From Gyromitra esculenta (taxonomy: Eukaryota > Ascomycota > Pezizomycetes > Pezizales > Discinaceae), in contig JBCAML010000013.1 in assembly GCA_038503075.1 (NCBI GenBank), positions 1,240,001 through 1,304,000 on the forward strand: a stretch of 64,000 bases of DNA. Reading direction: 5' to 3'. The translations under genes and the position numbers were made by a program. Within the stretch, counting starts at the first letter, position 1, and every line of letters starts with the position of its first letter. Positions 770-61,725 of the stretch are shown here, piece by piece. Under the pieces are notes generated by a model. That model was not told the origin of the DNA. It did not search any database and worked only from the letters and a program-made list of their open reading frames with translations.

Positions 770-1180
770 TTTCATGGATGGTTGTTTCGTTAATTGGTTG
801 AGGCACATGAGTACATGGTCATTGTGCTTTGTTATTTGTTTCTTGTGTTTCCATGGGTTTTTTGTTACAATGAGTCATGTCTTTGTCATCGAAGGAGTTG
901 GAATGTGGTATATAAGCGAAGGGTTTTCCCCTCTTGTTGTACTTTTCCTTCTTCTTTCTTTAAGCAACGTCTTCTATTGTTCACTCTTGTATTCTACAAT
1001 ACAAACCTCGGTTACACCTCGTAACCCATCGCTGTCGTTGTCTTCAAGTCATTTTAACTTGATCCACTCGTAGAGCCTGTAGAGTCTCCGCACACACTCT
1101 CGCTGTTGGTTTCCCACTCAAGTAGCACTGCTCATCTCAAGGGATACTCGAGAGCTTGACAAGAAACCCGCTCCTTGAGA
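770..1180 (+). repeat. 5' LTR of B1 (LTR-B)
   Basis: The LTR runs from TTTCATGG to CTCCTTGAGA. It contains a TATA box TATATAAG (909-916), a pyrimidine-rich stretch, the self-primer motif AAGCAACGT (962-970), a GGTTAC/GTAACC hairpin, a CAAGT/ACTTG hairpin and the GGATA-loop hairpin near its 3' end. Confidence 0.9.
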
Positions 1181-1182
1181 TT

Positions 1183-1191
1183 ACGTTGCTT
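1183..1191 (+). promoter_or_regulatory. Primer-binding site of B1
   Basis: ACGTTGCTT lies two bases after the 5' LTR and is the exact reverse complement of AAGCAACGT at 962-970 in the LTR. No tRNA-type TGG PBS is present. The match suggests self-priming by the 5' end of the element RNA, as described for Tf1/sushi retrotransposons. Confidence 0.7.
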
Positions 1192-1215
1192 CCGCATCTA
1201 CACTCTCTAATCCCG

Positions 1216-1634: not shown

Positions 1635-4524
1635 GTAGCCCCCCTCTTCAAGCGTGAACTCCTGCGAACCTTAGGAGTAGCTACAGTCGTCATCGTGAGG
1701 AACGTATCAAGAGCAGACGTGTCTTGGCGATCTTCGGCGGGTTCCCACGTAGGGTGAGCGTATCCGGTCCACTCAACAAGATATTGAAGTTGTCCTCGGT
1801 GGTTGCGCCGGTCGAGGATTTTTTCAATATAATATTCCTCCTAATCATTGACAACGATTGGAGCTGGAGGAGAAACAAGTTGTCCCGGTAGGGCATCATT
1901 GGGAGCAGGCTTGAGAAGGGAAACGTGAAAAACAGGATGATACTTGACTGAGGAGGGGAGATCTATGTCATAGGCGAACGGGGAAACAATTCATTTTACC
2001 ACATAGGGACCCATCCATTTCCAGTCCAGCTTCCTAGCATTACGGGTTGTCCGAATATTCTTCATCGACACGAAGACATGGTCATTAATTTGGTAAGCAG
2101 GGGCTGGTGTTCGATGTTTATTCATGGCTGTCTCCTGAATGTCCTGGGCTGTCCTGATTTGTGTTCGAAGATAATCGCTTAAATCTTGCATTTTTTCAGC
2201 AAAGGATGCGGCATCTAGGCTTTGGGGGGTGGCGATCGTAGGGAGGATAGAGGTATCAAAACGGGGGTGATAGCCGTAATTCGCAAAGAACGGGGAGACT
2301 TTAGTGCTGGCTGACTCTTGGTTATTAGCTGAGAATTCGGCCATAGGCAGCCATCGGTTCCAGTCTCCTTGTTGATACGATACATAGCAGCGGAGATACT
2401 GTTCCATAACCGCGTTGAGCCTTTCTGTTTGCCCATCTGTTTCAGGGTGAAAAGCAGTGGACATTCGGGCCTGAATTCCGAGGCATTGGCAGAGCTCTTT
2501 CCAGAAGTGAGTGGTGAACTGAGTGCCGCGGTCGGATGTTACGTGCGAGGGTAATCCATGAAGATTCCAGATATGTTGAAGATATAAATCAGCGACATCT
2601 CTGGAGTTGACTGTCGTATTGCAAGGGATAAAGTGACGCATTTTTGATAGCCGATCGACAACCACTAGTATTGCATCATATCCATCGGATTCTGGTAGGC
2701 CAGTAACAAAGTCCATGGAAATTTCTTGCCAGGGGCGGTTTGGGATAGGGAGAGGGTGGAGGACGCCTTGAGTGCGCTGCGTAACCGGCTTTGCCTTTTG
2801 GCAGGTATGGCAGTTGCGTACATAGCGGCCGATTGACTCTCTCATCTTTGGCCAGTAAAAACTTCTACTTATAAGCTCAAAGGTTTTATCCCGTCCTGGA
2901 TGTCCTGCTGCGGGGGTGTCGTGATGTCTTTTGATAATCTCTAAGCTAAGGAGGTCGAAGTCTGGTACATAGAGACTTCCTCGATAGCATAGCTTATTGT
3001 TCTCATTGGTACACTCGCTAAGGATGATTTCCTTTGACAGTTGTTCTTTGTTCTTCAGTTCTAGAAGTATTTTTTCAGGGAACTTGTCAGCGGTATATCC
3101 TTCTAGAAAGAGTTTCTCTAGGAGGGCGTCCAGTTCAGCGGCTTCATTTGACAAAGAAGCCGACAACAAACTTAGCTGAGAATCAATATTCTCCTTCTTT
3201 AACACCACTTGGCTCTGGTGTGCCAGTCTTTCATCCCCTTCCTTGGGGAGATCTCCTGATCTTCTAGTGAGTGCATCCGGCTTTCCTTCCTGGCTTCCTG
3301 GTCGGTATGTGATTACAAAGTTGAAGTGGGATAAATACTCGGCCCATCTAGCTTGGCGTCGATTGAGTTGTTTAGTACTCATGAAGTACTCGAGGTTCTT
3401 ATGATCACTAATCACATCAATCGGGTGCTTTGATCCCTCAAGCTCGGGGCGCCATTCTTCGAAAACGCGGATGATGGCCAACAGTTCCTTATCATAAATC
3501 TCGTAGTTGCATTCCGCGGGGGAATGTTTCTTCGAGAAGAAAGCCACTGGGTGCAGGACACCGTTATCATCGTACTGGGATAGGACTCCTCCGGACACAA
3601 AATCTGAGGCGTCTGTTTCTACGATGATTTTTTTGTCAGGATCGAAGTGGATAAGGATTGGGGCAGTGGTAAAGGCATGTTTGAGGTTTTCGAAAGCTAT
3701 TTCAGCTTCGACAGACCATTCAAAGGCGATACCTTTCTTGGTGAGGGCGGTGAGAGGAGCAGCAAGTTTGGAGAATCCTAGGATGAATTGGCGATAGAAA
3801 TTGGCAAAACCTAAGAATGCCTGGACGTCTTTTACACTCTTCGGTGTTCCCCATTCTTGGACGGCTTTGAGTTTCTCTTCGTCCATTTTTATACCATCAG
3901 GGGTGAGGATAAGACCGAGGTACATAGTAGTTTGTACCTCAAACTCGCATTTCTCTGGTTTCAGCAGAATGTCATTGTCCTTGAGAGTTTGGAGGACCTT
4001 GCGAACATGGATCTGATGCTCAGTGAAAGTGTCGCTATAGATGAGGATGTCATCCAGGTAGGCGGTGCAAAAGATATCTAGGTACTCCGTGAGACAGTCG
4101 TTAACGAACTGTTGGAATGTTCCAGGGGCATTAGTTAGACCGAATGGCATAACTTGGTACTCATAAAGGCCGTAGCACGTACGAAAGGCGGTTTTCCATT
4201 CATCTCCCTCTGCAATGCGTACTTGGTGGTACCCATCACGAAGGTCTAACTTGGTGTACCACTGGGCCTTCACTAAACGATCGAGTGTTTCTCGGATGAG
4301 GGGGGAGGTATATCGATCCTTGATCGTGATTGCATTCAATCCTCGATAGTCCACGCACAGACGTAGAGAGCCATCAGCCTTTTTTACAAAAAGCACGGGA
4401 GATCCTGCTGGAGAGGAGCTGGCACAAATAAAGACTTTTTCGAGATTGTCCTCTATATACTTTTTTAGGACAATTAGTTCTTCTCGGGACATTCCGTACA
4501 GTGGTCCAAAGGGCGCATCCTTTC
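1613..4524 (-). pseudogene. pol: A1 pol, 3' part (RT to chromodomain)
   Basis: This is the C-terminal portion of the A1 polyprotein. Reading down the minus strand it holds reverse transcriptase with the YLDD catalytic motif near 4040-4070, RNase H, an integrase zinc finger ([18 protein letters not shown] onward), the integrase DDE core ([22 protein letters not shown]), a GPY/F-like segment and a chromodomain (LQYLVEWTGYAHPTWEP). The reading frame is open from the nested LTR to about 1991, then is broken by a TGA after GPYVVK and by a TAG near 1848. The frame appears to end inside the 3' LTR at TAA 1613-1615. Polyprotein processing would be by the element protease. It is a pseudogene because of the stops and the nested LTR. 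Confidence 0.85.
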
Positions 4525-5364
4525 TTTCATGGATTGATTCAAGGTAATGAAGCGTGGTTCGGTTGCTGGTTGTATCGTGGTTTGAATGGTTGTACAATCC
4601 CTTTGTTGTTCGGTTATTTTCGGTTATAAGTTTTGTCAAGGAAAAACAGGGTATTTAAGCGATGGATTTCGGTCGTTCTTGTTCTTTTCTTCTTCTTTCC
4701 TTAAGCAACGTTCTCGTTTACCTTCTCCTGTAAATTGTCAGAATATCTCACGGTTGTGCCTCGGGATAAGCCCTTCAGTATCCCTGAAGGTGAGCAGTGC
4801 TACTTAAGCGAGGTGACAACACGTTTTGAAGAGTGCGACGTGTTCTACAAGTTCTACGAGGATATCTTTATCTCAAGGCGAGATAAGTGCAGCGAGGGAG
4901 ACAGCGACAGCGAAGATTCTGAGATAGAATCGAGATAGTATTTCGACGACTTTACAGCAGAAGGTAACGAGAACGTTGCTTAAAGAAGAAAGAGAAAGAG
5001 AACACAAACGACCAAAATCCCCCGTTTAAATACCCCGCTTTCTCGTGACACAAAACAGCCATCTGGCAACAACCGAACATAACTGAAAGACAAAGCCATT
5101 ATACTCAAAGAAAACCCTTCGTAATCATCCACAACCATCCTAGCCCATTACCCGATTCTTATCCGTGAAAGAATACTACATCGGTTCTACCTCAGAACTC
5201 TCGCTGTCGCCGTTTACTCCGCTGCACTTATCTCGCCTTGAGATCGACCCCTCGTAGAACTTGTAGAGAACATTGCACTCTTTGAACGTGTTATTACCTC
5301 GCTTAAGTAGCACTGCTCACCTTCAGGGATACTGAAGGGCTTAACGAGGAAAATAACCGTGAGA
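4525..5364 (+). repeat. Solo LTR-A inside A1 pol (interrupted)
   Basis: A solo family A LTR (TTTCATGG...CCGTGAGA) inserted in the RT region of A1 pol, with target duplication CTTTC at 4520-4524 and 5365-5369. It is itself split at 4746-5170 by a second solo LTR. The host LTR sequence is 4525-4745 plus 5176-5364. Confidence 0.9.
4746..5170 (-). repeat. Solo LTR-A inside a solo LTR-A
   Basis: A 425-bp reverse-orientation LTR, TCTCACGG...CCGTGAAA, flanked by GAATA at 4741-4745 and 5171-5175. It is the innermost of four nested levels (B1, A1, solo LTR, solo LTR). Confidence 0.93.
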
Positions 5365-5369
5365 CTTTC

Positions 5370-6162
5370 CTTCCATCAGCTGAATCTTGTGGTCGTAGGA
5401 GCGGCGAGGAGGTAATCCTTGGGCTTTCTTTTTATCAAACATGTTCAGAAAATCGTGATATTGTGCAGGAATACGTGACTTCCACTCTTCCTTGGTCGTT
5501 TGGTTGTCTATGATTTTGTTTATTTCATATAGTGACATGGCATAGGCTTGGGAGGTTCGTTTTCTGGTGAGAGTTCTGAAAATGGCAGCGCCAATAAACG
5601 AAAGGTTTAACCTAGGGGGAGCTGGGATCAAGGAGGTGGATACAATCGGTGAGCCAGGGGCGCAGTGGGTGGTGCAGAGTTTAGAATTAAACTCAATGCG
5701 TTTGTCGGCAAAGTGGAGGCGAACATCATGGTGATTCATCCATGGTATGCCCAGAACGAGGGGGTAGTGGCCAAGTTGTGTTACGAAACAGGGGGCTTGT
5801 TCACAATGGTCTTGTACAGAGAGGTTGAGGTTGACGATGTGGGTGATGTCTCCTGAGCTAACAGGACGACCATTGATAACTTCAAGTTGTTAAGGGGTTC
5901 TTAACAGGGAAAGGGGTAAAAGATGGTGACTCGCAAAGTCTTTATCAATGAAAGCGAATCCTGAGGCTCCAGTATCCAATAGCGCATGGGTTTTTATGAT
6001 TTTATTATTATGGGAAATGTTACATGATATAACGAAATGTTCCCCATCTAACCCATCCTCCACGCGTATATCTGATACCGAAAAACCTGAAATGGAAAAC
6101 ACTGACAAAGGCAAAGAAATGGGAACCAAGGCAGGGTCACTGATCGGCCTTGGTTGGACTAG
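5370..6162 (-). pseudogene. pol: A1 pol, 5' part (protease, start of RT)
   Basis: The protease domain shows the aspartic-protease signature LLDTGASGFAFID near 5935-5985 on the minus strand, followed by the linker region (SLYEINKIIDNQTTKEEWKSRIP) and the start of RT (AQGLPPRRSYDHKIQLMEGK). The frame is entered by -1 frameshifting at the end of gag (heptamer 6162-6168). A TAA at 5890-5892 interrupts the protease after SLLRTP, where other copies read PRQLEVI. The coding sequence continues beyond the nested solo LTR at 4524. Confidence 0.85.
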
Positions 6163-6168
6163 TTTAAA
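6124..6168 (-). promoter_or_regulatory. -1 frameshift signal of A1
   Basis: On the minus strand, T TTA AAC (6162-6168) is read in the gag frame directly before the TAG stop (6159-6161). After a 6-nt spacer comes the stem AACCAAGGC (6147-6155) pairing with GCCTTGGTT (6124-6132) across a 14-nt loop. Relative to A2 the last pair of the stem is C-G instead of T-A, a compensatory change. Confidence 0.85.
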
Positions 6169-7490
6169 GACTCGTTGAATGAGTCTGCTGATTCGAGGGC
6201 AAAAAACTGGGGCGGAAGAGGTGGTGGAGGCAAGGAGGAGGCAGGTGGTGTACGATTAGCGGGAGGGGCGGTGAGAGCCCCTCTCATTGTAGGTTTCTTT
6301 GGGGCCGAAGGACAGTTGGCATAGGAATGATCGGGCGCAGCACAAAACATGCATTTGCCTGTAGACCGGCGCCACTGTTTCTCTTCTTCCGAGAGCTTTC
6401 TTCGTCCATTTACCATGGTGTAGCGCTGATCTTGTGGGAGGCGAGAGAGATTGCTGGTTCTCCCGAAAGAAAGATCCATTGGAGCAAGGCCGCTTGGTAC
6501 GAAGGATGATGCAGGAACGAAAGGAGTCATTGTTTGAGAGCTGAACTGTCCCATTGTTTCTCTCGTATTACCTCGTTTCTCGGCTTTTCGGGCACGGATA
6601 CGATTGTCCAGGCGGGTGAGGGTAGTGATCATTTCTTCGAGGTTGACGGGGACGGCGGTGGCAAATACCATGGCTTCTTTCAATTCCTCTGACATTCCGT
6701 GCTCTAGGGCATCCATCTTCGAGTTCTCGTCGAAGTTTAGTTGACCCATGATGCGTTGGAAATCAGCCAGGTAGGCGGAGAAGTCTCGTTTGCCTTGACG
6801 GAGCTGGTGCAATTCTCGTCGTGTGGTACCGGTGGGATTGGGGTCTCCGAAGGCAGTCTTCAAGGAGGCGATGAGGGCTGCGGCGTTAGTCCAGGTTGTG
6901 AGGCCAGAGGGGAGAACAGTGTGTCAAACTTGTTCAAGGGCTGCTCCTTCCAGGCGGTTGATTGTGTAGAGAATCATGGTATTTTCATCAGCGAATCTGT
7001 CTCTGTTGACAGCGAGTTTTGAACGGAGTTGGAGAATAAAGCCGGGGAGTTTTGCTCTAGATCCATCGAATTTCTCTGGATCTGGCATGCGTTCGGAGCG
7101 GTGGTTGGTAGCTGATGGAGGCGGGGGAGTGACGGTGAGGTTTGGTGGAGCCAGGGGTGCTGAGAGGTTTTCTCAGGCTTCATTCCGTTCCTGACGGAGT
7201 CTGGCGATGAGGTTGGCAGCTTCTGTAACCCTTTGGTCTTGTTGTACTGCGTGGTGAAGGGCGTTGTCGAGCTGGATTTGGGCGGTGTTGAGTTTTACCT
7301 CATTTTCCCATTCGCTTTCCTGAAGGACATCGATTTGATCCTCCAGGGGTTGGTAGAGATCTCGGAGTAGATTGTAATGTTCCGAGGGGTCTTCTCTGAT
7401 GGCTTGGGCGAAGGCTTCTCGTGTGGGGAAGCGTGGGTGAGTGACGGCGATTCCTTCAGTGGAAGGGCCAGCGGGAGCGGGTGAGCTCAT
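6159..7490 (-). pseudogene. gag: A1 gag with two TGA stops
   Basis: A gag gene of about 443 codons beginning MSSPAPAGPSTEG (ATG at 7490). The N-terminal part predicts a coiled coil (LRDLYQPLEDQIDVLQESE). The middle is a Ty3/Gypsy capsid-like region (DRFADENTMILYTINRLEGAALEQV). Near the end is a CCHC zinc knuckle CMFCAAPDHSYANC (C-X2-C-X4-H-X4-C). Two in-frame TGA codons, at 7173-7175 and 6924-6926, replace arginines seen in other copies, both explained by CGA to TGA. No frameshift is needed, so the copy was disabled by point mutation alone. Confidence 0.88.
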
Positions 7491-7680
7491 GATGTTGGTG
7501 TTGGGCGAGGGAAGGAGTTCTTGCGTAAGTACTCTTGATCGAGCCACTCGGGGATGACTTCGAGCAGGGGTTGGGGTTTTTGCAGCTTTAAGCAAGGGAA
7601 GATGCTGAGGATGGATTGACGAATCCGAGTGGTAATTTCCATGCAGGGAGTTGCTTTGTGGTGGAAGGTGTAGATGTTGG

Positions 7681-7689
7681 AAGCAACGT
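7681..7689 (-). promoter_or_regulatory. Primer-binding site of A1
   Basis: The minus strand reads ACGTTGCTT here, two bases from the 5' LTR. It is complementary to AAGCAACGT in the same LTR (plus-strand acgttgctt at 7911-7919), supporting a self-priming mechanism. Confidence 0.7.
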
Positions 7690-7691
7690 AA

Positions 7692-8110
7692 TCTCACAGT
7701 TCAGTGTCTCGTTAAGCTCTTCAGTATCCCTGAAGATGAGCAGTGCTACTTAAGCGAGATACCAACACGTTTGAAGAGTGCAGTATTTCTACAAATTCCA
7801 CGGAGGATATACTTCAAGGTGAAGTATTGGCGATGTTTCACAGCGACAGCGAAGGCTCTGAGGTAGAACTGAGATAGTATTAAAGTAATACAGGTAGAAG
7901 TGAAATGAGAACGTTGCTTAAGAAAAGAAGAAGAAAGAGTACAAGAACGACTAAAATCCTTCACTTAAATACCCCGCTTTCCCGTAACACAAATAACCAT
8001 CCAACGACAACCGAAGCATAATCGAACAACAAAGCCATTATACCCAAAGGAAATCCTCCGTACGTACCAACAACTTTACCCTAACCCATTACCCGGTTCT
8101 ATCCGTGAAA
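7692..8110 (-). repeat. 5' LTR of A1 (LTR-A)
   Basis: A 419-bp LTR nearly identical to 1216-1634; by eye about five substitutions separate them. The minus strand has TATTTAAG upstream of a pyrimidine tract and AAGCAACGT. Confidence 0.93.
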
Positions 8111-8137
8111 TCCCGCTCACTCCCAACCAATATCACC

Positions 8138-9514
8138 ATGAGCAACCCTGCCCCCGCCCCTTGGACCTTCCCCACCTTTGAGAATTTCCAAGCCGCTGCC
8201 AATGCCGACCTCGCTTCCGCCTAAGAAGAAATCCGCTCCCACTATCAACAGCGGATGGATAACCTTACCTACTCAGACCTGCAACTTGAGGAAGCCACTC
8301 AAGAAAGGAACAACATGATGGTAAGGTTTAACACCTGCCAGTCCCAACTGCAAGCAGCTGAAGCAGAGGTCGCTCGCCTTCGCAACGTCTCCCCCCCTCC
8401 CCCGCCGCCCGCACCATCACCACCACCGCCTCCTGCTCACACTCAAGGAGGCTGCTCGGATAAAATGCCCAACCCAGATAAATTCAATGGGTCTCGCGAC
8501 AAACTTCCTGGGTTTGTCCTACAACTCAGATCAAAACTCTCAGTCAACGCCGATCGCTTCTCCAACAACAATAACATGAGATTGTATGCCATTAGCCGCC
8601 TTGAGGGAGCAGCCCTCGAACAAATCCGTCACTCCGTCCTTCCGGACGGAACTACCACCTGGAACTTCGCCGCTGACCTGATCACCACTCTGGAAACAGC
8701 CTTCGGCGACCCCAATCCCCTCGGTACCGCCTGCCGCGAACTAAATCAACTCCGACAAGGAAAACGAGATTTCTCCGCCTATCTTGCCGATTTTCAACGC
8801 ATCATGGGACGTCTCAATTACGACGAGTCTGCCAAAAATGACGCCCCAGAATTCAGAATGTCGGATGAGTTGAAAGAAGCAGTGGTAACCGTCGCCGACT
8901 TCCCCACCACCTTCCCTTCCCTCTGCGCCTTCCTCCTTCGCTTGGATAATCGCATCCGAGCAAGAAGAGAAAAAAAAAAAAATGCTGCACATAACACCAT
9001 GGGACAATTCACCGCCCCTGCCGCCGCCCCCGCTGCCTTTACCCCCGCTTCCTCCTTCGCCCCAGAAGGACTCGCCCCCATGGACCTCTCCTTCCGCCGT
9101 ACCTCTACCTCCCGTCCTGCCCCTGAACAACGCTATGTTCAAGTCAAGGGAAGGAGAAAATTGTCCCCTGAAGAAAAAACTTGGAGACAAACCAATAACC
9201 GCTGCCTGTTCTGCGCCGGAGAAGGACACATCTTCTCCAACTGCCCCTCTGCCTCCAAGCGCCCCGCTATGAGAGGAGCCGTTACTAACACTGCCGCCGC
9301 CCCTCCCGCTTCTTCTGTTTTTCCGCCGCCCCTACCACCTCGCTTTCCTGCCTTCGATGCAGCAGACTCCGTTGAGTCTTTAAACTTGTTCAACCAGAGT
9401 CGCCTTGTGACCCTGCTCTGGTTCATTTTTCTCCTTTGTCAGCGTTCTCTATTTCTGGGTTCTCGGTGTCAGATGTGTGTGTGGAGGATAATTTGGATGG
9501 GGAACATTTTGTAA
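8138..9514 (+). pseudogene. gag: B1 gag with TAA at codon 29 and lost stop
   Basis: The original start is probably ATG 8138 (MSNPAPAPWTFPTFENF), because the same frame continues into the later ATG at 8255 and the 8138 ATG occupies the position used by family A. A TAA at 8222-8224 interrupts it at codon 29. The protein has a proline-rich segment, a capsid-like domain (LPGFVLQLRSKLSVNADRF, DFSAYLADFQRIMGRL) and a zinc knuckle CLFCAGEGHIFSNC. The TAG that ends gag in family A directly after TTTAAAC is TTG here, so the gag frame runs on to 9514 and overlaps pol. It is non-functional unless translation restarts at 8255. Confidence 0.85.
9379..9423 (+). promoter_or_regulatory. -1 frameshift signal of B1
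   Basis: TTTAAAC at 9379-9385 is in phase as T TTA AAC with gag. A 6-nt spacer is followed by the stem AACCAGAG (9392-9399) and CTCTGGTT (9416-9423). A further U-G pair would give a 14-nt loop. The stem bases differ from family A (AACCAAGG/CCTTGGTT) with pairing kept. Confidence 0.85.
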
Positions 9515-12500
9515 TTTCATGTAGCCTTTCCCACCAAAATAAAATCATAAAAACACATGCACTTCTAGACACTGGAGCCTCAGGGTTCGCTTTCATTGAT
9601 GAAAACTTTGTGCGTCACCATTCCTTACCCCTATTTCCCCTCAAAACCCCTCAACAACTAGAAGTCATTGATGGGCAAACACTTGCCTCGGGAGACATCA
9701 CCAACCTATGCCACTTGGAGCTTTCCATTCAACAACACACTGAGAAAGCCCCCTTTTTTGTAACCAAGCTAGGACACTATCCCCTGGTACTTGGCATCCC
9801 TTGGATGAACCTCCATGACATTCATCTACAATTCGCCAACAAAAGCATTGAATTTAACTCTAAATTATGCACCACCCACTGCGCCCCAAAGCAGCCTATC
9901 GTTTCTGCCGCCGCCATTCCCCCTCCAGCAAAACTAAACGCCGCCTTCATTAGCGCGGCTAGCTTTCGCATGCTTGCTAGGAAGAAAGGTATTCAGGTGT
10001 ATTCCATGTCCCTCTACAAAATCAATAGAGTTCTTGATAGCAAAACTACTAAAGAAGAGTGAAGGCAACGAATACCCGCCGAATACCATGAATACCTAGA
10101 CATGTTCGACAAAGCCAAAGCCCAAGGACTCCCCCCCCGCCGTCCCTATGACCATAAGATCACCCTCCAAGAAGGCAAGGAACCACCATTCGGCCCACTC
10201 TATGGTATGTCATGAGATGAGCTTCTAGTTCTAAAAAAGTACATCGAGGACAACTTAGAAAAAGGCTTTATTCGTGCTAGCTCATCATCCACCGGTTCTC
10301 CCGTCCTCTTTGCTGCAAAACCGGATGGTTCTCTACATCTTTGTGTAGAATACCGAGGCCTTAATGCTCTTACTATCAAAGACCGCTACACCTCCCCGCT
10401 CATCAAAGAAACCCTTGACCGTCTCGCAAAAGCACAATGGTATTCCAAACTAGACCTCAGAGACGGATTTCATCAAATCCGCATCGCAGAGGGAGAAGAA
10501 TGGAAAACCGCCTTTAGGACTCGATATGGTCTTTACGAATACATGGTAATGCCATTTGGCCTTACTAATGCCCCCGGTACCTTCCAGCGCTTTGTCAATG
10601 ATTCTCTCCAAGAATACTTGGACCTCTTTTGCACAGCTTATCTCGATGATATCCTCATCTATGGCGATACCCTCGCCGAACACAAGATTCACGTCCGACA
10701 GGTCCTCGATACCCTAAAAGCCAATAACATTCTTCTCAAACCTGAGAAGTGTGAATTCCATGTCCAATCCATAAAATACCTCGGATTGATCCTTACACCT
10801 GAAGGGATCAAAATGGATGAAAACAAACTCAAGGCCGTACGAGACTGGAACCGCCCTAAGTGCATTAAGGATGTTCAAGCCTTCCTCGGTTTTGCAAATT
10901 TCTACCGACGATTTATCCTAGGGTTCTCCCGTCTAGCTGATCCCCTTACCGCTTTTACAAGAAAGGGTATTATTTTCGAATGGACCGTTGAGGCTGAACT
11001 TGCATTCGAATCACTTAAGGATGCTTTTACGAAGGCCCCCGTACTCATCCACTTCGATCCCCGAAAGAAGATTTTTGTGGAATCCGATGCTTCTGACTTC
11101 GTCTCCGGTGGTGTTCTCTCCCAACTCGACGATAACGGCGTACTTCATCCTGTGGCCTTCTTCTCCAAGAAGCATTTACCAGCCGAATGCAACTACGAGA
11201 TTTATGATAAGGAACTTCTAGCTATTATACGCTGTTTTGAGGAATGGAGACCAGAACTTGAAGGCTCCGAGCTACCCATCTCCGTTATCACTGATCATAA
11301 GAACTTGGAATATTTCATGACCAACAAGCAACTTAATCGACGACAAGTCAGATGGGCTGATTACCTCTCACGTTTTGACTTTGTCATTACTTACAGACCA
11401 GGAGCACAAGGAGGAAAACCGGATGCACTGACTCGGAGATCAGGAGATCTTCCTGAAGAAGGGGATGAAAGACTACAACATCAATACCAAGTAGTCTTGA
11501 AGGAAAAGAATGTCGATTCTAAGCTGAGTTTGTTTTCGGGTTCTTTATTAAATGAACCTGCTGAATTGGATGCCTCCTTCGAGACTTTAATGAATCATGG
11601 ATATAATGCTGACCCGTTCCCACAAAAAATCCTTCTAGCACTTAGAAATGGTGAACGACAATCCAAAGAAATCACCTTAGGTGATTGTACCAAAGTCAAG
11701 GGCTGCCTTTTCTATCGGCAAAAGCTCTATATCCCCGATCATGACCCTCTCCGCCTTCTTTTTCTACAGCAACATCATGATGCCCCCTCTGCCGGCCACC
11801 CAGGACGTGAAAAATCCTTTGAACTTATTTCAAGACACTTCTACTGGCCAAAGATGAGGGAATATATTGGTCGTTATACCCGAAACTGCCATACCTGTCG
11901 ACGACCTAACCAAGTACCCTCGGTACTCACAGCGTCCTGAAACCACTCCCAATCCCTAATCGCCCCTGGGAAGAGTTATCAATGGACTTCGTCACTGGCC
12001 TCCCAGAATCTAATGGCTTTGATGCTATTATGATTGTTGTGGACCGACTCTCGAAGATGCAACGTCTTATCCCATGCAATACTACCATCAACGCCGAGCA
12101 GACTGCCGAACTATACCTCCAAAATGTTTGGAAACTTCACGGACTTCCTTCCTATCTTACTTCTGATAGAGGAACACAGTCTTCCGCGAAGTTTTGGAAG
12201 CATCTCTGCCAACGTTTGAATATTGCCGCCCGCATGTCTACTTCTTTTCATCCAGAGACTGATGGACAAACTGAACGCCTTAATGCCGTAATGGAACAAT
12301 ACCTTCGTTGTTATGTATCCTACCACCAGGACAATTGGTCTAAATGGCTACCCATTGCTGAATTCTCTGCTAATAATCAAGAATCTGCCAGTACCAAGGC
12401 CACGCCCTTGTTTGCGAATTATGGCTATCACCCCCGCTTCGATACCTCAATCGTCTCCAATGACCGCTCTCCCCAGACCCTCGATGCTGACGACTTCGCC

Positions 12501-13064
12501 TCCAAAATGGAAGAACTTAGGGACTTCCTCTGAATACAGATGAGAACAGCCCAGGACATCTTTGAGTCAAGTACAAATCTGCACCGTACCCCTGCTCCAT
12601 TGTTTAGGGAAAAGAACGAAGTGTTTGTATCGATGAAAAACATGAGGACAATGCGGAACTCAAAGAAATTGGATTGGAAATGGAGTGGCCCGTTTCCTGT
12701 GAAGCGTGTTATTTCAGCCTATGCCTACGAGATTGATCTCCCAAAATCAATGAAGTATCATCCTGTATTTCACGTTTCGTTGATTAAAGCAGCTCCCGTC
12801 GACCCTCTTCCAGGTCAAGTCATTGTATCACCCCCACCAGTTCAAGTTAACGATCACGAGGAATACCTTGTCGAAAGCATCCTAGATTCCAGTTTACTTC
12901 ACGGGAAACTTCAATACTTGGTCGAGTGGACTGGCTATGCACTACCCACTTGGGAAGCCGCAGAGTACCAAGAGGAGACAGAAGCAGTAGATTTTTTCCA
13001 TCGACAATATCCGGATAAACCAAAGGAAGGAGTGGTTAGTGTTCGCAGGAGCTCACGGCTATGA
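9385..13064 (+). pseudogene. pol: B1 pol (PR-RT-RH-IN-chromodomain), broken
   Basis: A polyprotein in the -1 frame relative to gag. In order it has protease DTGASGFAFID (about 9570), RT with [13 protein letters not shown] and YLDDILIY (about 10560-10665), RNase H ([11 protein letters not shown], about 11080), an integrase zinc finger ([18 protein letters not shown]), the DDE core (MDFVTGLPE 11982, [15 protein letters not shown]) and a chromodomain (LQYLVEWTGYALPTWEAAEY, about 12910-12970). Lesions are TGA at 10060-10062 (a tryptophan in other copies), TGA at 10213-10215 and TGA at 12531-12533 (arginines in other copies), and a frame change between about 11900 and 11980. The stop TGA 13062-13064 sits in the polypurine tract. 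Confidence 0.88.
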
Positions 13065-13071
13065 GGGGGGG
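13063..13071 (+). other. Polypurine tract of B1
   Basis: GAGGGGGGG lies just upstream of CTAC and the 3' LTR start TTTCATGG, the expected plus-strand priming site. The equivalent in A2 is 21321-21331. Confidence 0.7.
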
Positions 13072-13075
13072 CTAC

Positions 13076-13484
13076 TTTCATGGATGGATGTTTCGTTGAT
13101 TGGTTAGGTACATGGGTACATGGTCGTTGTGTCTTGATATTGTTCTTTGTGTTTCTATGGGTTTCCTGTTACAATGAGTCATGTCTTTGTCATCGAAGGA
13201 GTTGGAATGTGGTATATAAGCGAAGGGTTTTCCCCTCTTGTTGTACTTTTCCTTCTTCTTTCTTTAAGCAACGTCTTCTATTGTTCACTCTTGTATTCTA
13301 CAATACAAACCTCGGTTACACCTCGTAACCCATCGCTGCCGCTGTCTTCAAGTCATCTTAACTTGATCCACTCTTGGAGCCTGTAGAATATCCGTATACA
13401 CTCTCGCTGTTGGTTTCCCACTCAAGTAGCACTGCTCATCTCGAGGGATACTGGAGAGCTTGACAAGAAACCCGCTCCTTGAGA
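13076..13484 (+). repeat. 3' LTR of B1 (LTR-B)
   Basis: A 409-bp LTR from TTTCATGG to CCTTGAGA with TATATAAG, AAGCAACGT and the three conserved hairpins, matching 770-1180. Confidence 0.9.
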
Positions 13485-15665: not shown

Positions 15666-15849
15666 GCGGAGGAGCTAATTGTTGCTTCGTTGTAGGAGGT
15701 GTAAAATATAGTTTCACGGACGGAACAAAGTAATGGGTTAGGATAAAGTTGTTGGTAGTTATGAAGGATCTCTTTTGGTACAATGGCTTTGTTGCTCGGT
15801 TACGTTTCGGTTGTTGTCGGATTGTTGATTGTGTTACGGGAAAGCGGGG

Positions 15850-15909
15850 TATTTAAGTGAAGGATTTTGGTTGTTTTGTTGTCTTTTCTCTTCTTTCCTT
15901 AAGCAACGT
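15850..15909 (+). promoter_or_regulatory. A2 LTR promoter: TATA, CT tract, RNA start motif
   Basis: TATTTAA (15850-15856) precedes a pyrimidine-rich block ending TTCCTT and then AAGCAACGT (15901-15909), about 45 bases downstream. A CT-rich tract followed by an A-containing start is usual for fungal promoters. That the RNA begins at or beside this AAG is inferred from its complementarity to the PBS; no transcript data were available. Confidence 0.55.
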
Positions 15910-15949
15910 TCTCGTTTACCTTCTCCTGTATTTGTCGGAATACTATCTC

Positions 15950-15966
15950 GGTTCTATCTCAGAATC
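15950..15966 (+). ncRNA. Leader hairpin H1 (A2 copy)
   Basis: GGTTCT (15950-15955) pairs with AGAATC (15961-15966) around the loop ATCTC, with one G-U pair. Other LTR copies have GGTTCT/AGAACC, GATTCT/AGAATC, GGTTAC/GTAACC, GATTAC/GTAATC and GGTTAT/ATAACC around an ACCTC-like loop, so pairing is kept while sequence changes. Confidence 0.7.
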
Positions 15967-15994
15967 CTCGCTGTCGCTGTCCACTTCGCTGCAC

Positions 15995-16013
15995 TTATCT
16001 CGCCTTGAGATAA
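15995..16013 (+). ncRNA. Leader hairpin H2 (A2 copy)
   Basis: TTATCTC (15995-16001) pairs with GAGATAA (16007-16013) around the loop GCCTT. Other LTR-A copies read TAACTC/GAGTTA, TGTCTC/GAGACA and TACTTC/GAAGTA with nearly the same loop. LTR-B copies have CAAGT/ACTTG, GGAGT/ACTCC or GGTTC/GAACC at the equivalent place. Confidence 0.7.
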
Positions 16014-16069
16014 AACCCATTGTAGAACCTGTAGAAACGCTGCACTCCTTGAACGCGTTGATACCTCAT

Positions 16070-16109
16070 CAAGTAGCACTGCTCACCTTCAGGGATACTG
16101 AAGGGCTTG
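16070..16109 (+). ncRNA. Leader hairpin H3 beside the PBS (A2 copy)
   Basis: CCTTCAG (16086-16092) pairs with CTGAAGG (16098-16104) around the loop GGATA. An outer helix CAAG/CTTG (16070-16073 with 16106-16109) encloses the invariant GTAGCACTGCTCA. In other copies the outer helix is 8-11 bp with different bases. Its place just before the PBS resembles the U5-IR stem-loop needed for self-primed reverse transcription in Tf1. Confidence 0.75.
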
Positions 16110-16132
16110 ACAAGGGACTCAACCGTGAGATT

Positions 16133-16141
16133 ACGTTGCTT
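16133..16141 (+). promoter_or_regulatory. Primer-binding site of A2
   Basis: ACGTTGCTT begins two bases after the LTR and is the exact complement of AAGCAACGT (15901-15909). The same nine bases occupy this place in A1, A3, A6 and B1. Confidence 0.7.
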
Positions 16142-16333
16142 CCACCATCTACACCTTCTACCGCAGAAAACAACACGTTTCATGGGAATCATCACTCAGA
16201 TTCGCCAATCCATTCTAAGCATCTTCCCCTGCTTAACGCTGCGAAAACCACAACCTTTGGTTGAAGTCACTCCCGAGTGGCTGGATCAAGAGTACCTACG
16301 CAAGAACACTTCCCCTCAACCGACACCAACACC

Positions 16334-17656
16334 ATGAGCTCACCCGCTCCCGCTGGCCCTTCCACTGAAGGAGTTGCTGTCGCCACCCCACGCTTTCCCA
16401 CCAGAGAAGTCTTCGCACAAGCACTGCGAGAAGACACAGCTGAGCTGTACAATCACCTCAGAGACCTCTATCAGGCCTTGGAAGACCAAATCGATGTCCT
16501 CCAAGAAAACGAAAGAGAGACCGAGGTGAAACTTGGCACCGCAAAGATTCAAACTGACAATGCTCTCCGTCATGCCGCGGAACAAGATAATCGGGTCAAC
16601 GAGACCGCTAATCTAATTGCCCGGCTACGACAAGAGCGAAACGAAGCTCGATCCGCTAATCAAGCCCCCCCTGCTCCACCCAACCTCACTGCCACCCTGC
16701 CGCCACCAATACATTCCCACCGCTCGGAACGGATGCCAGACCCAGAAAAATTCGATGGATCCCGAGCCAAACTCCCAGGTTTTGTACTTCAACTGCGTTC
16801 CAAGCTCACGGTCAATAGAGACCGCTTCGCCGACGAAACCACAATGATTTTATACACGATCAATCGTCTGGAAGGAGCAGCCTTGGAACAAGTTCGCCAC
16901 ACCGTCCTCCCTTCTGGCCTCACCACCTGGACTAGTGCAGAACACCTAATCGCTGCCCTGGAAACCGCTTTCGGAGACCCCGACCCCACTGGCACGGCCC
17001 GACGAGAGCTTCACCAACTTCGACAGGGGAAACGCGACTTCTCCGCATACCTGGCCGACTTCCAAAGAATCATGGGGCAACTCAATTTTGACGAGAACTC
17101 GAAAATGGACGCTCTAGAGCACGGTATGTCAGAAGAATTGAAGGAAGCCATGGTATTCGCACCTGTCGCCCCGGCCAACCTTCAAGAAATGATCACAACC
17201 CTCACTCGATTGGACAATCGGATTCGAGCTCGCAAGGCAGAAAAACGAGGCAACGCCCGTGATAACATGGGACAATTCAGTGCCCCTGCTGCCTTTACTC
17301 CCGCCTCTTCTTTTACCCCAGGCGGACTAGCTCCCATGGACCTATCCTTCGGCCGCACCAGCAACCTCTCTCGCCCCCCTCAGGATCAAAGATATACGAT
17401 GGTTAATGGAAGAAGGAAGCTTTCGGAGGAGGAGAAACAATGGCGACGATCCACAGGGAAATGTATGTTTTGCGCGGCCCCCGACCACTCCTACGCCAAC
17501 TGTCCTTCTGCCCCCAAAAAACCTACGATGAGAGGAGCCCTCACCGCCCCACCCGCTAACCGTACGCCCCCGGCCTCTTCCCTGCCACCACCACCACTCC
17601 CTCCTCAATTTTTCGCGTTAGAATCAGCAGACTCAGCCAACGAGTCTTTAAACTAG
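16334..17656 (+). CDS. gag: A2 Gag capsid/nucleocapsid protein
   Basis: Gag forms the virus-like particle in which element RNA is copied. I chose ATG 16334 (ACACCATGAGC context, MSSPAPAGPSTEG) because all A copies align from it, although the frame is open a little further upstream. It encodes 440 residues. The N-terminal third is charged and probably coiled coil (NHLRDLYQALEDQIDVLQENE). A Ty3/Gypsy capsid-like region follows (KLPGFVLQLRSKLTVNRDRF, TRRELHQ-type QLRQGKRDFSAYLADFQRI). A proline-rich linker leads to the zinc knuckle CMFCAAPDHSYANC, which should bind genomic RNA, and a proline-rich C terminus. The TAG stop directly follows the T TTA AAC frameshift heptamer. The frame is intact. 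Confidence 0.93.
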   Translation: MSSPAPAGPSTEGVAVATPRFPTREVFAQALREDTAELYNHLRDLYQALEDQIDVLQENERETEVKLGTAKIQTDNALRHAAEQDNRVNETANLIARLRQERNEARSANQAPPAPPNLTATLPPPIHSHRSERMPDPEKFDGSRAKLPGFVLQLRSKLTVNRDRFADETTMILYTINRLEGAALEQVRHTVLPSGLTTWTSAEHLIAALETAFGDPDPTGTARRELHQLRQGKRDFSAYLADFQRIMGQLNFDENSKMDALEHGMSEELKEAMVFAPVAPANLQEMITTLTRLDNRIRARKAEKRGNARDNMGQFSAPAAFTPASSFTPGGLAPMDLSFGRTSNLSRPPQDQRYTMVNGRRKLSEEEKQWRRSTGKCMFCAAPDHSYANCPSAPKKPTMRGALTAPPANRTPPASSLPPPPLPPQFFALESADSANESLN

Positions 17657-17691
17657 TACAACCAAGGTCGATCAGTGACCCTACCTTGGTT
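17647..17691 (+). promoter_or_regulatory. -1 ribosomal frameshift signal of A2
   Basis: TTTAAAC (17647-17653) is in phase as T TTA AAC and is followed at once by TAG (17654-17656). After a 6-nt spacer the stem AACCAAGGT (17660-17668) pairs perfectly with ACCTTGGTT (17683-17691) across a 14-nt loop. U UUA AAC is one of the most efficient known eukaryotic -1 slippery sites. Pol lies exactly in the -1 frame and is open through the site. Copies in A1, A3 and B1 keep heptamer, spacer and pairing. Confidence 0.9.
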
Positions 17692-20600
17692 CAAAATTTC
17701 CTACCTTTATCTGCATTTTCAATTTCTGGGTTTTCGGTTTCTGGTATGAGCGTGGAGGATCAATTGGATGGAGAACACTTTGTAATATCGTGCAATATTT
17801 CCCATGGCAATAAAATCATAAAAACACACGTTTTACTAGACACCGGAGCTTCCGGATTTGCATTTATTGATCAGAAATTCGCGAGTCACCATTCCCTACC
17901 TCTTAGCCCCCTAAAAAACCCCCGTCAACTTGAAGTCATCGATGGTCGCCCTGTCGCCTCAGGAGACATTACCCACATCGCCAACCTCAATCTATCCATC
18001 CAAAATCACCAAGAACAAGCCCCCTGTTTCGTGACCCAACTAGGCCACTACCCCCTAGTCTTAGGCATACCATGGATGAGACACCATGATGTGCAACTCC
18101 ACTTCGCCAACAAACGCATTGAGTTTAATTCTAAACTCTGCACCACTCACTGTGCCCCTCAGTCCCCTATCGTCACCTCCCAATCGATCCCCGCTCCTCC
18201 CAGACTAAATATGTCTTTTATTGGCGCTGCCAGCTTCAGAACACTTACGAGAAAGCGCAGTCACCAAGCTTACGCCATGTCGCTCTACGAAATAAACAAA
18301 CTCATAGACAAAGAAACGACCAAGGAAGAATGGAAATCAAGGATCCCAGTTGAATACCACGAGTTCCTAGACATGTTCGATAAAGCAAAAGCACAAGGAC
18401 TACCCCCACGCCGCCCCTACGATCATAAGATACAATTGATGGAAGGAAAGGATGCACCATTCGGACCACTCTATGGAATGTCAAGGGAGGAACTTATTGT
18501 CCTAAAAAAGTATATCGAAGACAACCTTGAGAAGGGCTTTATCCGCGCCAGTTCCTCTCCCGCCGGTTCCCCTGTACTCTTTGTAAAAAAGGCGGATGGC
18601 TCCCTCCGACTATGTGTTGATTATAGAGGCCTAAACGCCATCACTGTCAAAGATCGCTATACCTCTCCTCTCATACGAGAAACCCTCGATAGACTAGCCA
18701 AAGCTCAATGGTACACAAAGCTCGACCTCCGCGAGGGTTATCATCAGATCCGAATCGCCGAAGGGGAGGAGTGGAAGACTGCCTTCCGAACCCGTTATGG
18801 ACTCTATGAATACCAGGTCATGCCATTCGGGCTAACCAATGCTCCCGGGACCTTCCAACGCTTCGTAAACGATTGCCTCACCGAATATTTAGATATCTTT
18901 TGTACAGCCTACCTGGATGACATCCTCATCTACAGTGATACCTTCGCGGAGCACCAGATTCATGTCCGAAAGGTTTTACAAACGCTAAAAAATAATGACA
19001 TCCTTCTCAAACCCGAGAAGTGTGAGTTCGAAGTGCAAACCACTAAGTACCTAGGCCTAATCCTCACCCCTAATGGCATCAAGATGGATGAAGAAAAATT
19101 AAGAGCCGTCAGAGAATGGGGAACTCCAAAGAGCGTCAAAGATGTTCAGGCATTCCTGGGATTTGCCAATTTTTACCGGCGGTTTATCCTGGGCTTTTCT
19201 AAACTCGCTTCGCCTCTCACTGCCCTCACAAAAAAAGGGATAAACTTCGAATGGACGGTCGAAGCTGACATCGCTTTTGAGAATTTGAAACACGCCTTCA
19301 CCACCGCCCCTATCCTCATCCACTTTGACCCTGATAAAAAAATCATTGTGGAAACCGACGCCTCAGACTTCGTATCAGGCGGAGTCCTGTCCCAATACGA
19401 TGACGCAGGAGTCCTACACCCGGTAGCCTTCTTTTCCAAAAAGCACTCACCAGCAGAGTGCAATTACGAAATCTATGACAAGGAGCTACTTGCCATCATC
19501 CGAGTCTTTGAAGAATGGCGCCCGGAACTTGAAGGTTCAAAGCATCCAATTGACGTCATCAGTGATCACAAAAACCTTGAGTACTTTATGAGCACCAAGC
19601 AACTCAACCGTCGACAAGCTAGATGGGCTGAATACATATCGCGCTTTGATTTTGTTATCACGTATAGACCAGGGAGCCAAGGGGGAAAACCGGATGCATT
19701 GACAAGGAGATCAGTAGATCTCCCCAAGGAAGGGGATGAAAGATTGGCGCATCAAAGCCAAGTGGTATTAAAAAAGGAGAATATTGATCCCAAGATAAGT
19801 TTGTTGTCGGCTTCTTTGTCAAATGAAGCCGCTGAATTGGACGCCCCCCTTTTTAAACTTTTTCAAGAAGGATATATCACTGATAAGTTTCCGGAAAAGA
19901 TACTTGCGGCATTGAGGAATAAAGAACAACAATCCAAGGAAATTACCTTAAGTGAATGCAGTAATAGAAACAATCTATTATGCTACCGTGATTGTCTCTA
20001 TGTTCCCAACCTTGACTCTCTCCGACTTGAACTTATCCGAAGACACCATGACACCCCAGCGGCAGGTCATCCAGGGCGTGACAAAACCTTTGAACTCCTA
20101 GCCCGGAACTTTTATTGGCCCAAGATGCGAGAATCAGTCAGCCGGTATGTACGAAACTGCCATACCTGCCAAAAAGCCAAACCAAATACCCAACGAACTC
20201 AAGGCGTCCTTCGCCCCCTACCAATCCCTAACCGTCCCTGGCAAGAGATTTCGATGGACTTTGTTACAGGCGTTCCAGAATCCAAAGGCTATGATGCTAT
20301 TATGGTTGTTGTCGACCGATTATCCAAGATGCGACATCTAATCCCATGCAATACTACGGTTAATTCTCGAGATGTAGCCGACCTCTATTTGCAACATATC
20401 TGGAAGCTACACGGATTGCCTACACATGTCACCTCCGATCGAGGCACCCAGTTCACGGCTCACTTTTGGAAGGACCTTTGTAAACGCCTTGGAATTCAAG
20501 CTCGGATGTCTACAGCCTTTCACCCGGAAACCGATGGACAAACGGAACGGCTGAACGCGGTCATGGAGCAATACTTGCGCTCTTACGTCTCTTATCAACA

Positions 20601-21357
20601 GGATGATTGGAGTAAATGGTTGCCAATGGCCGAGTTCTCCGCTAACAACCAGGAATCGGCTAGTACCAAAGTCTCCCCCTTTTTTGCCAATTACGGTTAC
20701 CACCCTCGTTTCGACACTACCTTTTTGCCTACTCGGAATACATCTCAAAGCTTAGATGCGGCTTCGTTCAGTCAAACCATGCAAGAGCTATACGACTACC
20801 TACGGACGCAAATAAGAACGGCCCAAGATATCCAAGAGGTCGCAACGAATAAGCACCGAACCCCAGCCCCAGACTATCAAGTCGGCGATCAAGTCTTCGT
20901 TTCAATGAAGAATGTTAGGACCGTGCGTAATGCCAGAAAACTAGACTGGAAGTGGATGGGGCCTTACTCAGTCAAGAAAACCGTATCCCCCTTTGCTTAT
21001 GAGATTGATCTTCCTGCGTCAGTCAAGTATCACCCTATGTTTCACGTTTCCTTGTTGAAACCCGCTGCCAACGACTCTCTACCCGGACAAATTATACTCC
21101 CTCCTGCACCCGTGATAGTTAATGAACAAGAAGAATACTTTATTGAAAAGATTCTCGAACAAAGAACCTATCGCGGACGGCTACAATACCTTGTCGAATG
21201 GACCGGATACGCCCATCCCACCTGGGAACCTGCGGACGATCTACAAGAGACCTCTGCTCTCGAGATATTCTTGAACCAAACGACGGTCATTGGTCCTAGT
21301 ATTCGCAGGAGCTCACGCTTAAGAGGGGGAGCTACTTTCACGGATGAAGTGGACTGA
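17653..21357 (+). CDS. pol: A2 Pol polyprotein (PR-RT-RNaseH-IN-chromodomain)
   Basis: Made as a Gag-Pol fusion by -1 frameshifting; 17653 is the first new-frame base. The aspartic protease has its catalytic Asp at 17839-17841 (DTGAS). RT has [13 protein letters not shown] and YLDD at 18910-18921. RNase H has its first Asp in ETDASDF at 19357-19359. Integrase shows the zinc finger His-His from 20044 and Cys-Cys at 20158-20169, then D (20257-20259), D (20437-20439) and E (20545-20547), a D-D35-E spacing. A GPY/F-type segment (KWMGPYSVKKTVSPFAYEI) and a chromodomain (about 21118-21276, LQYLVEWTGYAHPTWEP) end the protein. Chromodomains in this clade bind methylated histone H3 and steer integration to heterochromatin, which fits the nested insertions here. 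The stop lies 22 bases inside the 3' LTR. No broken motif is seen. Confidence 0.95.
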   Translation, partial: LVQPRSISDPTLVQNFLPLSAFSISGFSVSGMSVEDQLDGEHFVISCNISHGNKIIKTHVLLDTGASGFAFIDQKFASHHSLPLSPLKNPRQLEVIDGRPVASGDITHIANLNLSIQNHQEQAPCFVTQLGHYPLVLGIPWMRHHDVQLHFANKRIEFNSKLCTTHCAPQSPIVTSQSIPAPPRLNMSFIGAASFRTLTRKRSHQAYAMSLYEINKLIDKETTKEEWKSRIPVEYHEFLDMFDKAKAQGLPPRRPYDHKIQLMEGKDAPFGPLYGMSREELIVLKKYIEDNLEKGFIRASSSPAGSPVLFVKKADGSLRLCVDYRGLNAITVKDRYTSPLIRETLDRLAKAQWYTKLDLREGYHQIRIAEGEEWKTAFRTRYGLYEYQVMPFGLTNAPGTFQRFVNDCLTEYLDIFCTAYLDDILIYSDTFAEHQIHVRKVLQTLKNNDILLKPEKCEFEVQTTKYLGLILTPNGIKMDEEKLRAVREWGTPKSVKDVQAFLGFANFYRRFILGFSKLASPLTALTKKGINFEWTVEADIAFENLKHAFTTAPILIHFDPDKKIIVETDASDFVSGGVLSQYDDAGVLHPVAFFSKKHSPAECNYEIYDKELLAIIRVFEEWRPELEGSKHPIDVISDHKNLEYFMSTKQLNRRQARWAEYISRFDFVITYRPGSQGGKPDALTRRSVDLPKEGDERLAHQSQVVLKKENIDPKISLLSASLSNEAAELDAPLFKLFQEGYITDKFPEKILAALRNKEQQSKEITLSECSNRNNLLCYRDCLYVPNLDSLRLELIRRHHDTPAAGHPGRDKTFELLARNFYWPKMRESVSRYVRNCHTCQKAKPNTQRTQGVLRPLPIPNRPWQEISMDFVTGVPESKGYDAIMVVVDRLSKMRHLIPCNTTVNSRDVADLYLQHIWKLHGLPTHVTSDRGTQFTAHFWKDLCKRLGIQARMSTAFHPETDGQTERLNAVMEQYLRSYVSYQQDDWSKWLPMAEFSANNQESASTKVSPFFANYGYHPRFDTTFLPTRNTSQSLDAASFSQTMQELYDYLRTQIRTAQDIQEVATNKHRTPAPDYQVGDQVFVSMKNVRTVRNARKLDWKWMGPYSVKKTVSPFAYEIDLPASVKYHPMFHVSLLKPAANDSLPGQIILPPAPVIVNEQEEYFIEKILEQRTYRGRLQYLVEWTGYAHPTWEPADDLQETSALEIFLNQTTVIGPSIRRSSRLRGGATFTDEVD
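21321..21331 (+). other. Polypurine tract of A2
   Basis: AAGAGGGGGAG precedes CTAC and the 3' LTR start at 21336. Here it is also coding (end of pol). Confidence 0.7.
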
Positions 21358-21748
21358 AAGGTTAGGGTTCGGAACGTAACGGTTGCAACGGATGATGGTT
21401 TCTTTATAATGTCTTTGTTGTTCGGCTGTGTTTCGGTTATGAGTCATGAGAGGGATTGCGGGGTATATAAGGGATGGATTCTAAACGGTTGTTATGGTTT
21501 TCTTTCTCTTTCTTTAAGCAACGTTCTTACTTTACTTCTGTCGTATTGTTTTAATACTATCTCGATTCTACCTCAGAATCCTCGCGGTCGCTGTCGCTGT
21601 AGAACATTCCCACACTTAACTCGCCTTGAGTTAGACCCCGTAGGACCTGTAGAAAACTTCGTTATTCTTATCACAACGATTCTCGTTTAAGTAGCTCTGC
21701 TCACCTTCTGGGATACAGAAGGGCTTAGACTAGGATCGAACCGTGAGA
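21336..21748 (+). repeat. 3' LTR of A2 (LTR-A, A4-like subfamily)
   Basis: A 413-bp LTR from TTTCACGG to CCGTGAGA with TATATAAG and AAGCAACGT. H2 is TTAACTC/GAGTTAG-type and H3 is CCTTCTG/CAGAAGG around GGATA. It is clearly different from the 5' LTR of the same element and close to the LTR at 54246-54660. Confidence 0.9.
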
Positions 21749-61294: not shown

Positions 61295-61303
61295 AAGCAA
61301 CGT
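61295..61303 (-). promoter_or_regulatory. Primer-binding site of A3
   Basis: The minus strand reads ACGTTGCTT, complementary to AAGCAACGT in the LTR (plus-strand acgttgctt at 61524-61532). Confidence 0.7.
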
Positions 61304-61305
61304 AA

Positions 61306-61725
61306 TCTCACGGTTCAGTTCCTCGTTAAGCCCTTCAGTATCCCTGAAGGTGAGCAGTGCTACTTAAGTGAGGAACTAACACGTTCGAGGAGTGCAGTGT
61401 TTCTACAAGTTCTACGAGGGTGCATGTCGGCGAGACAAGTGCGGCGAGGTAAACAGTGACAGCGAGGGTTCTGAGGTAGAACCGAGATAGTATTCAAATG
61501 ATTACAGCAGAAGGTAAACGAGAACGTTGCTTAAGGAAAGAAAAGAAGAAGAACGAAAACAACCAAGATCCTTCCTTAAATACCCCGCTTTTCAATAGCA
61601 CTAACAACAACCCGGCAACAACCGAAACACAAAGACATTATCCTAATAACCCGAAACCTAACCGAACAACAAAGAAATTATACAACCATCTGAACCACGA
61701 GTCATCCCTGAATCAATCCATGAAA
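61306..61725 (-). repeat. 5' LTR of A3 (LTR-A)
   Basis: A 420-bp LTR. H3 is ccttcag/ctgaagg (61332-61350) with the outer helix agttcctcgttaag (61317-61330) pairing with cttaagtgaggaact (61363-61377). H2 is damaged here (GCATGTCGGCGAGACA) although the 3' LTR keeps it. Confidence 0.93.

Follow-up and report, generated by a model that had tools for sequence, protein, structure and literature searches.

A candidate self-priming, pseudoknotted leader with selected hairpins in a chromodomain Ty3/gypsy element of Gyromitra esculenta

What purpose is served by the three hairpins that lie between the presumed RNA start and the PBS in the leader of this LTR retrotransposon? The question arises at positions 15901-16141 of a 64,000-nucleotide stretch of Gyromitra esculenta DNA (the window), for which a preliminary description, made from the sequence, had proposed three hairpins (H1, H2, and H3) whose stem bases change in pairs while their loops stay constant, as the mark of selected RNA structure.

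The element and its LTRs

The leader belongs to an element with the following parts.

15712..16130, + strand: 5' LTR, TTTCACGG...CCGTGAGA (target duplications, alignment of window LTRs)
15850..15856, + strand: TATA-like box TATTTAA, about 50 bases 5' of the presumed RNA start (sequence, inference)
16277..17656, + strand: gag frame (Retrotrans_gag, DUF4939)
17686..21357, + strand: pol frame with protease, RT, RNase H, integrase, and chromodomain (open reading frame, domain matches)

Gag and pol are open in separate frames across 16277-21357, and the domains matched in pol are RVP_2, RVT_1, RNase H, rve, SH3_Tf2-1, and Chromo. The LTRs at 15712-16130, 7692-8110, and 61306-61725, as well as the genome copies, run from TTTC to GAGA and lack TG...CA ends; all elements drawn in the available portion of PMC10085805, in contrast, have CA as their last two bases. 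The bounds TTTCA[CT]GG...GAGA were assessed in 90 LTRs with a recognizable 5' end, 28 of them followed by a PBS and 62 not. Perfect 5-base target duplications flank 27 of these 62, with one mismatch in another 3 and two or more in the remaining 32; controls shifted by one base gave 0 and 3 duplications, counting those with zero or one mismatch. The integration ends of the reference LTR are CCGTGAGA and CCGTGAAA. For the RT stretch, the highest identities among the 120 matches listed were 78%, and the named ones came from Morchella sextelata. No description of the present element was found among the literature matches listed, and a search of 15801-16300 with Rfam covariance models gave no match up to E 5.

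Hairpins and their covariation

15928..15943, + strand: hairpin H0, GTATT/AATAC (motif count in 159 copies)
15950..15966, + strand: hairpin H1 (pairing, covariation, event counts)
15995..16013, + strand: hairpin H2 (pairing, covariation, event counts)
16061..16118, + strand: H3 domain (pairing, event counts, folding, arm swaps, genome pattern count)
16061-16068/16111-16118, + strand: H3 outer helix
16069-16073/16106-16110, + strand: H3 middle helix
16075-16083, + strand: H3 mini-hairpin
16086-16092/16098-16104, + strand: H3 inner stem, with the invariant loop GGATA at 16093-16097

Hairpins H1 to H3 are confirmed as real. Their stems, with the variants quoted in the preliminary description, were found in the 21 aligned LTRs of the window, as were the outer H3 stems of the copies at 1216, 61306, and 28592 and the mismatch at 26637, which had been set aside as a decayed exception. 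That list of exceptions was right about 26637 and left out 61306, in which the 3' arm of H2 is altered; in the same alignment its partner LTR, 55877, retains the intact arm. The genome (47.1 Mb, 23 contigs) yielded 194 places, and removal of 28 partial and 7 identical ones left 159 distinct leaders, which were assigned by nearest window LTR to three groups that we label A, B, and C. A further hairpin that had gone unnamed, H0, lies 5' of H1 and was counted by motif in 116 of the 159 copies; it is poor in the 159-leader alignment because group B is misaligned there.

Most core stem pairs are intact in 150-159 copies out of 158-159, and several occur as three pair types among the 159 leaders, including 16091-16099 (A-T/G-C/T-A) and 15998-16010 (T-A/C-G/A-T). 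Weaker pairs are 16069-16110 (147/158 copies) and, in H2, 15995-16013 (131/158) and 16001-16007 (103/158, with group B unpaired); another H2 pair, 15996-16012, is a gap in all copies except 12. These three H2 pairs were omitted from the event counts. Applied to an earlier set of 95 aligned leaders, RNAalifold returned H1 and the inner stem of H3 together with part of H2.

When all 24,976 column pairs of the 159 leaders were ranked by G-test, the top four were stem pairs of H2, H3, H1, and H2, and the same four led when window copies were excluded (138 copies). In those 138 copies a null model of substitution along the tree was exceeded by an H2 pair and an H3 pair, with E<0.05 when all pairs were searched. 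The pairs ranked third and fourth, one in H1 and one in H2, had E values of 0.4 and 0.65 in this all-pairs search, which is small relative to the roughly 27 pairs that had been named beforehand; the other stem pairs ranked 32 or lower. The G-test with a tree null is low in power because the three groups differ by fixed changes, and event counts on the tree were used alongside it. Double changes preserve pairing in 30 of 34 cases within the 33 helix pairs, versus 1,006 of 8,456 elsewhere. The 25 core pairs underwent 25 pair-to-pair double changes with none broken in the 159 leaders, compared with 0-2 compensatory doubles in eight controls with partners slid by 1-4 columns in both directions, although single changes that start from a paired state are also rarer in these controls (22-77, versus 118 in the core pairs).

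Raw covariation is to a large extent shared by whole groups, and the tree null was passed by two pairs only, as would be seen if the covariation were merely apparent and reflected the common ancestry of the three LTR groups. We find this hardly credible, since double changes recur at the same pairs (six events at 15951-15965 and four at 16091-16099, by tree counts), slid partners yield next to none, and swap tests within groups favor each copy's own arms. The timing of the changes is also informative. Changes from a Watson-Crick state retain pairing in 25 of 31 cases on internal branches and in 48 of 112 on terminal ones, which hold mostly postinsertion changes (Fisher p 0.0002); higher retention on internal branches is expected if selection acts in active elements and ceases after insertion. 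Covariation above background is borne out in the genome-wide set by the event counts and, for two pairs, by the tree null, and a real, selected RNA structure is supported, the changes on internal branches being compensatory and the terminal ones less so. The claim of constant loops, in contrast, holds for H3 alone: GGATA shows 0 internal and 6 terminal changes over its 5 sites, whereas the loops of H1 and H2 vary, with 3.6 internal changes per site versus 1.38 in the stems (tree counts).

The outer helix of H3 gave a mixed picture. In 103 of the 128 copies with anchors, a copy's own outer arms outpair arms exchanged within its group; 31 of the 159 lacked anchors, and the group B 3' arm was set a few bases early, which makes the test loose there. 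The proposed outer pairing stood in this respect; its alignment, clouded by indels, is not clean, 5 doubles being compensatory and 4 not, and changes that preserve pairing are not in excess on internal branches (159 leaders). The H3 pattern of junction, loop, and both arms occurs at 1,955 places genome-wide, and a scan of viral contigs with it gave 0 matches. This abundance, the unchanging loop, and a junction strand that is likewise slow to change by tree counts would suit a packaging or dimerization signal, or a dock for Gag or RT, formed by H1 to H3 and sharing the leader with a self-primer; the GGATA loop and the three-way junction TAGCACTGCT would then make protein or kissing contacts. 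We regard such a role as a serious possibility, at somewhat below even odds. It leaves two long-range duplexes of the leader, D1 and D3, unexplained, and it is compatible with them and not exclusive.

The presumed self-primer, the PBS, and the long-range duplexes

Three duplexes, D1 to D3, join distant parts of the leader; other 5' LTRs of the window that carry the same parts are included below.

15901..15909, + strand: self-primer AAGCAACGT, 5' arm of D1, with which the RNA presumably begins (reverse complement of 16133-16141 without mismatch)
15910..15913, + strand: TCTC, 5' arm of D2 (pairs with the LTR end GAGA)
16022..16035, + strand: GTAGAACCTGTAGA, 5' arm of D3 (covariation with sequence past the PBS)
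16127..16130, + strand: GAGA, LTR end and 3' arm of D2 (pairing)
16133..16141, + strand: PBS ACGTTGCTT, 3' arm of D1 (sequence, genome pattern, complementarity)
16148..16161, + strand: TCTACACCTTCTAC, 3' arm of D3, outside the LTR (covariation, complementarity)
770..1191, + strand: group B 5' LTR with identical self-primer and PBS; D3 GTAGAG/CTCTA
7681..8110, - strand: second 5' LTR, with self-primer at 7911-7919 and PBS at 7681-7689; D3 GTGGAA/TTCCAC
61295..61725, - strand: third 5' LTR, with self-primer and PBS; H2 3' arm altered

The first nine bases of the 15901-16141 stretch are complementary to its last nine at 9/9 positions (D1), and the PBS, ACGTTGCTT, starts two bases (TT) past the LTR end. 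A genome search whose pattern left the PBS free and required the group A and C form of the D3 3' arm found 316 places, and ACGTTGCTT stands in 95 of the 100 places among the matches listed. D1 shows little covariation because the PBS and the primer hardly vary; the primer has 0.33 internal changes per site, versus 4.52 in the rest (tree counts), a rate biased low by the selection of the first round of copies with the primer motif. D2 pairs well in two of the groups, A and C, but weakly in B, and shows no covariation.

A PBS that is primed by tRNA starts with TGG, the complement of the tRNA CCA end. This start is absent here, judged on the PBS sequence, which reads ACGTTGCTT after TT. A tRNA or tRNA fragment as primer, with the nine-base match merely incidental, therefore appears highly improbable, also given that the match is 9/9 at the very point where the RNA is expected to start. 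The available portions of PMC10085805 and PMC6317226, moreover, report self-priming for the chromodomain Tf1/sushi group.

D3 provides covariation across the PBS. Its arms, 16022-16035 and 16148-16161, are complementary at 12/14 positions and change in step (GTAGAA/TTCTAC, GTAGGA/TCCTAC, GTAGAG/CTCTAC, GTGGAA/TTCCAC, and further TGTAGA/TCTACA and TGTGGA/TCCACA). Among 5' LTRs carrying the usual PBS, 59 in all, 51 could be used, 7 having no recognized 5' arm and 1 no 3' arm. In these, with arms located by motif, 601 of 612 cells are Watson-Crick, versus 558 +/- 4.3 (maximum 574) in 5,000 shuffles that ignore relatedness; the two central positions are paired in 1/51 and 0/51 copies. Complementarity of 12/12 at the D3 site arose by chance in 2 of 200,000 shuffles. 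On a tree of 41 of the 45 copies with the exact PBS, D3 shows 5 compensatory doubles at 3 positions plus a switch at the root and no broken doubles, and every one of 10 single breaks or G.U changes is terminal. D3 crosses D1, which makes the fold a pseudoknot.

At 33 places (L011, L089-L103, and L108-L124) the PBS lacks one G (GAGATTACGTTCTT). The primer carries a matching change in 2 of 32 of them and is ordinary in the 33rd, in L011; none of four PBS point variants has a matching primer change. D3 could be scored in 16 of the 33 short-PBS 5' LTRs and is broken more often there than in usual-PBS copies. The short-PBS and point-variant places look like decayed copies. L089-L124 hold many more small deletions than 60 other short loci, several of them at recurring sites: one-base deletions number 172 in 8,520 aligned bases, versus 76 in 14,028, where 34 of the 36 loci were aligned, four of the 36 are PBS point variants, and about 29 of the 172 deletions are the selection criterion itself. 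The excess may reflect a real process or assembly error.

Folding and the proposed priming structure

In 39 leaders folded with their own PBS the mean z was -3.27, with 34/39 below -2. Pairing probability exceeded 0.5 for the H3 inner stem in 38/39, for H2 in 32/39, and for H1 in 27/39; D1 did so in 39/39, these leaders having been chosen for an intact primer and PBS. The 5' arms of H1 and D3 pair with each other instead in the reference copy's nested minimum-energy fold; by eye, an alternative partner for the H1 5' arm at approximately 16018-16028 looked unconserved in the 21-LTR alignment.

The hairpins might alternatively be palindromes in the DNA, such as binding sites for host or element proteins. 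Each strand indeed folds better than shuffles (z -3.21 for the + strand and -2.47 for the reverse), and G.U and A.C intermediates show no clear strand difference (9 versus 4 on internal branches and 39 versus 34 on terminal ones). Palindromes would not, however, account for covariation between the D3 blocks, which lie on either side of the PBS and over 100 bases from each other, or for the exact match of primer and PBS that frames the fold, and we consider them very unlikely. We infer that it is the + strand RNA that folds.

The preliminary description assigned the structure no function and had missed the long-range duplexes, which explain it; the D1-D3 frame together with the chromodomain Ty3/gypsy proteins matches the pretzel of the Tf1/sushi group. 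Our favored reading, to which we give a probability of about 0.88, is that this region serves as the 5' untranslated leader of a chromovirus of the Tf1/sushi type, folded into a pseudoknotted pretzel that would offer the RNA's own 5' end as primer. The RNA would start at or adjoining 15901, and its first nine bases would fold back onto the PBS (D1), with the next four pairing with the LTR end (D2). A block in the middle of the leader would pair just past the PBS (D3), crossing D1 to give the pretzel-type pseudoknot. H0, H1, and H2 would lie in the loop between the 5' arms of D1 and D3, and H3 would fill the other loop, bounded by the 5' arm of D3 and the 3' arms of D2 and D1; the hairpins may thereby shorten the loops and keep the arms together. 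By analogy with Tf1, cleavage after base 9 by the element's RNase H would free a 3' end, from which synthesis would proceed across the two spacer bases into the LTR end.

Retroviruses have a related arrangement, the U5-IR stem-loop, a duplex adjoining the PBS and built from U5 and leader. Its likeness to the Tf1 structure is reportedly the subject of one paper, to judge by the title; the present element would differ in having no tRNA primer. In Tf1, as described in the available portion of PMC10085805, a central primer:PBS duplex and two PBS-adjacent/LTR duplexes downstream of the primer form the pretzel, and self-priming requires this three-duplex structure. Tf1 of Schizosaccharomyces pombe, Tf2, Tj1, Tosmo1-3, and Tcry1 are likewise chromodomain Ty3/gypsy elements with a 5' end complementary to the PBS and a pretzel, according to the portions available of PMC10085805 and PMC4600332. 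The element studied here has a pol with chromodomain integrase, a PBS complementary to its own presumed 5' end, an exact D1, a covarying D3, and a D2 that is good in two groups of three; H0 to H3 appear to be additions to the Tf1 pretzel as described. Tcn1-like chromoviruses of fungi and lower plants also carry a chromodomain and are related to Tf1/sushi, and most plant members of the Tcn1 clade lack a tRNA-type PBS and are predicted self-primers (PMC6317226, in the portion available). SM-Tcn1 differs in its TG...CA ends and in having no recognized PBS in the available part of PMC2864245.

We read the element as a new, heavily copied Tf1/sushi type whose pretzel carries extra selected hairpins. 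With about 2,000 copies of the H3 module in one genome, natural compensatory changes support the pseudoknotted primer and map the selected parts, while self-priming structures elsewhere rest, in the published portions available, on inspected predicted folds of few elements; which parts of the leader Tf1-type priming needs thereby becomes a testable list. More speculatively, and in our view rather unlikely, the H3 module with its three-way junction and invariant GGATA loop might dock RT or Gag and so tie primer cleavage to packaging, and D2, by using the LTR end, might have fixed the non-CA end GAGA.

The element at 15712-21748 has 5' and 3' LTRs from different groups (73% identity over 307 aligned bases) and no matching target duplication, and 20120-21751 matches 54243-55876 at 92%; from its sequence, it looks as if it were recombinant. 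At 770-13484, the leader of a group B element is interrupted directly past its D3 3' arm by a group A element (1216-8110) that has the duplication TCCCG/CGGGA on its two sides.
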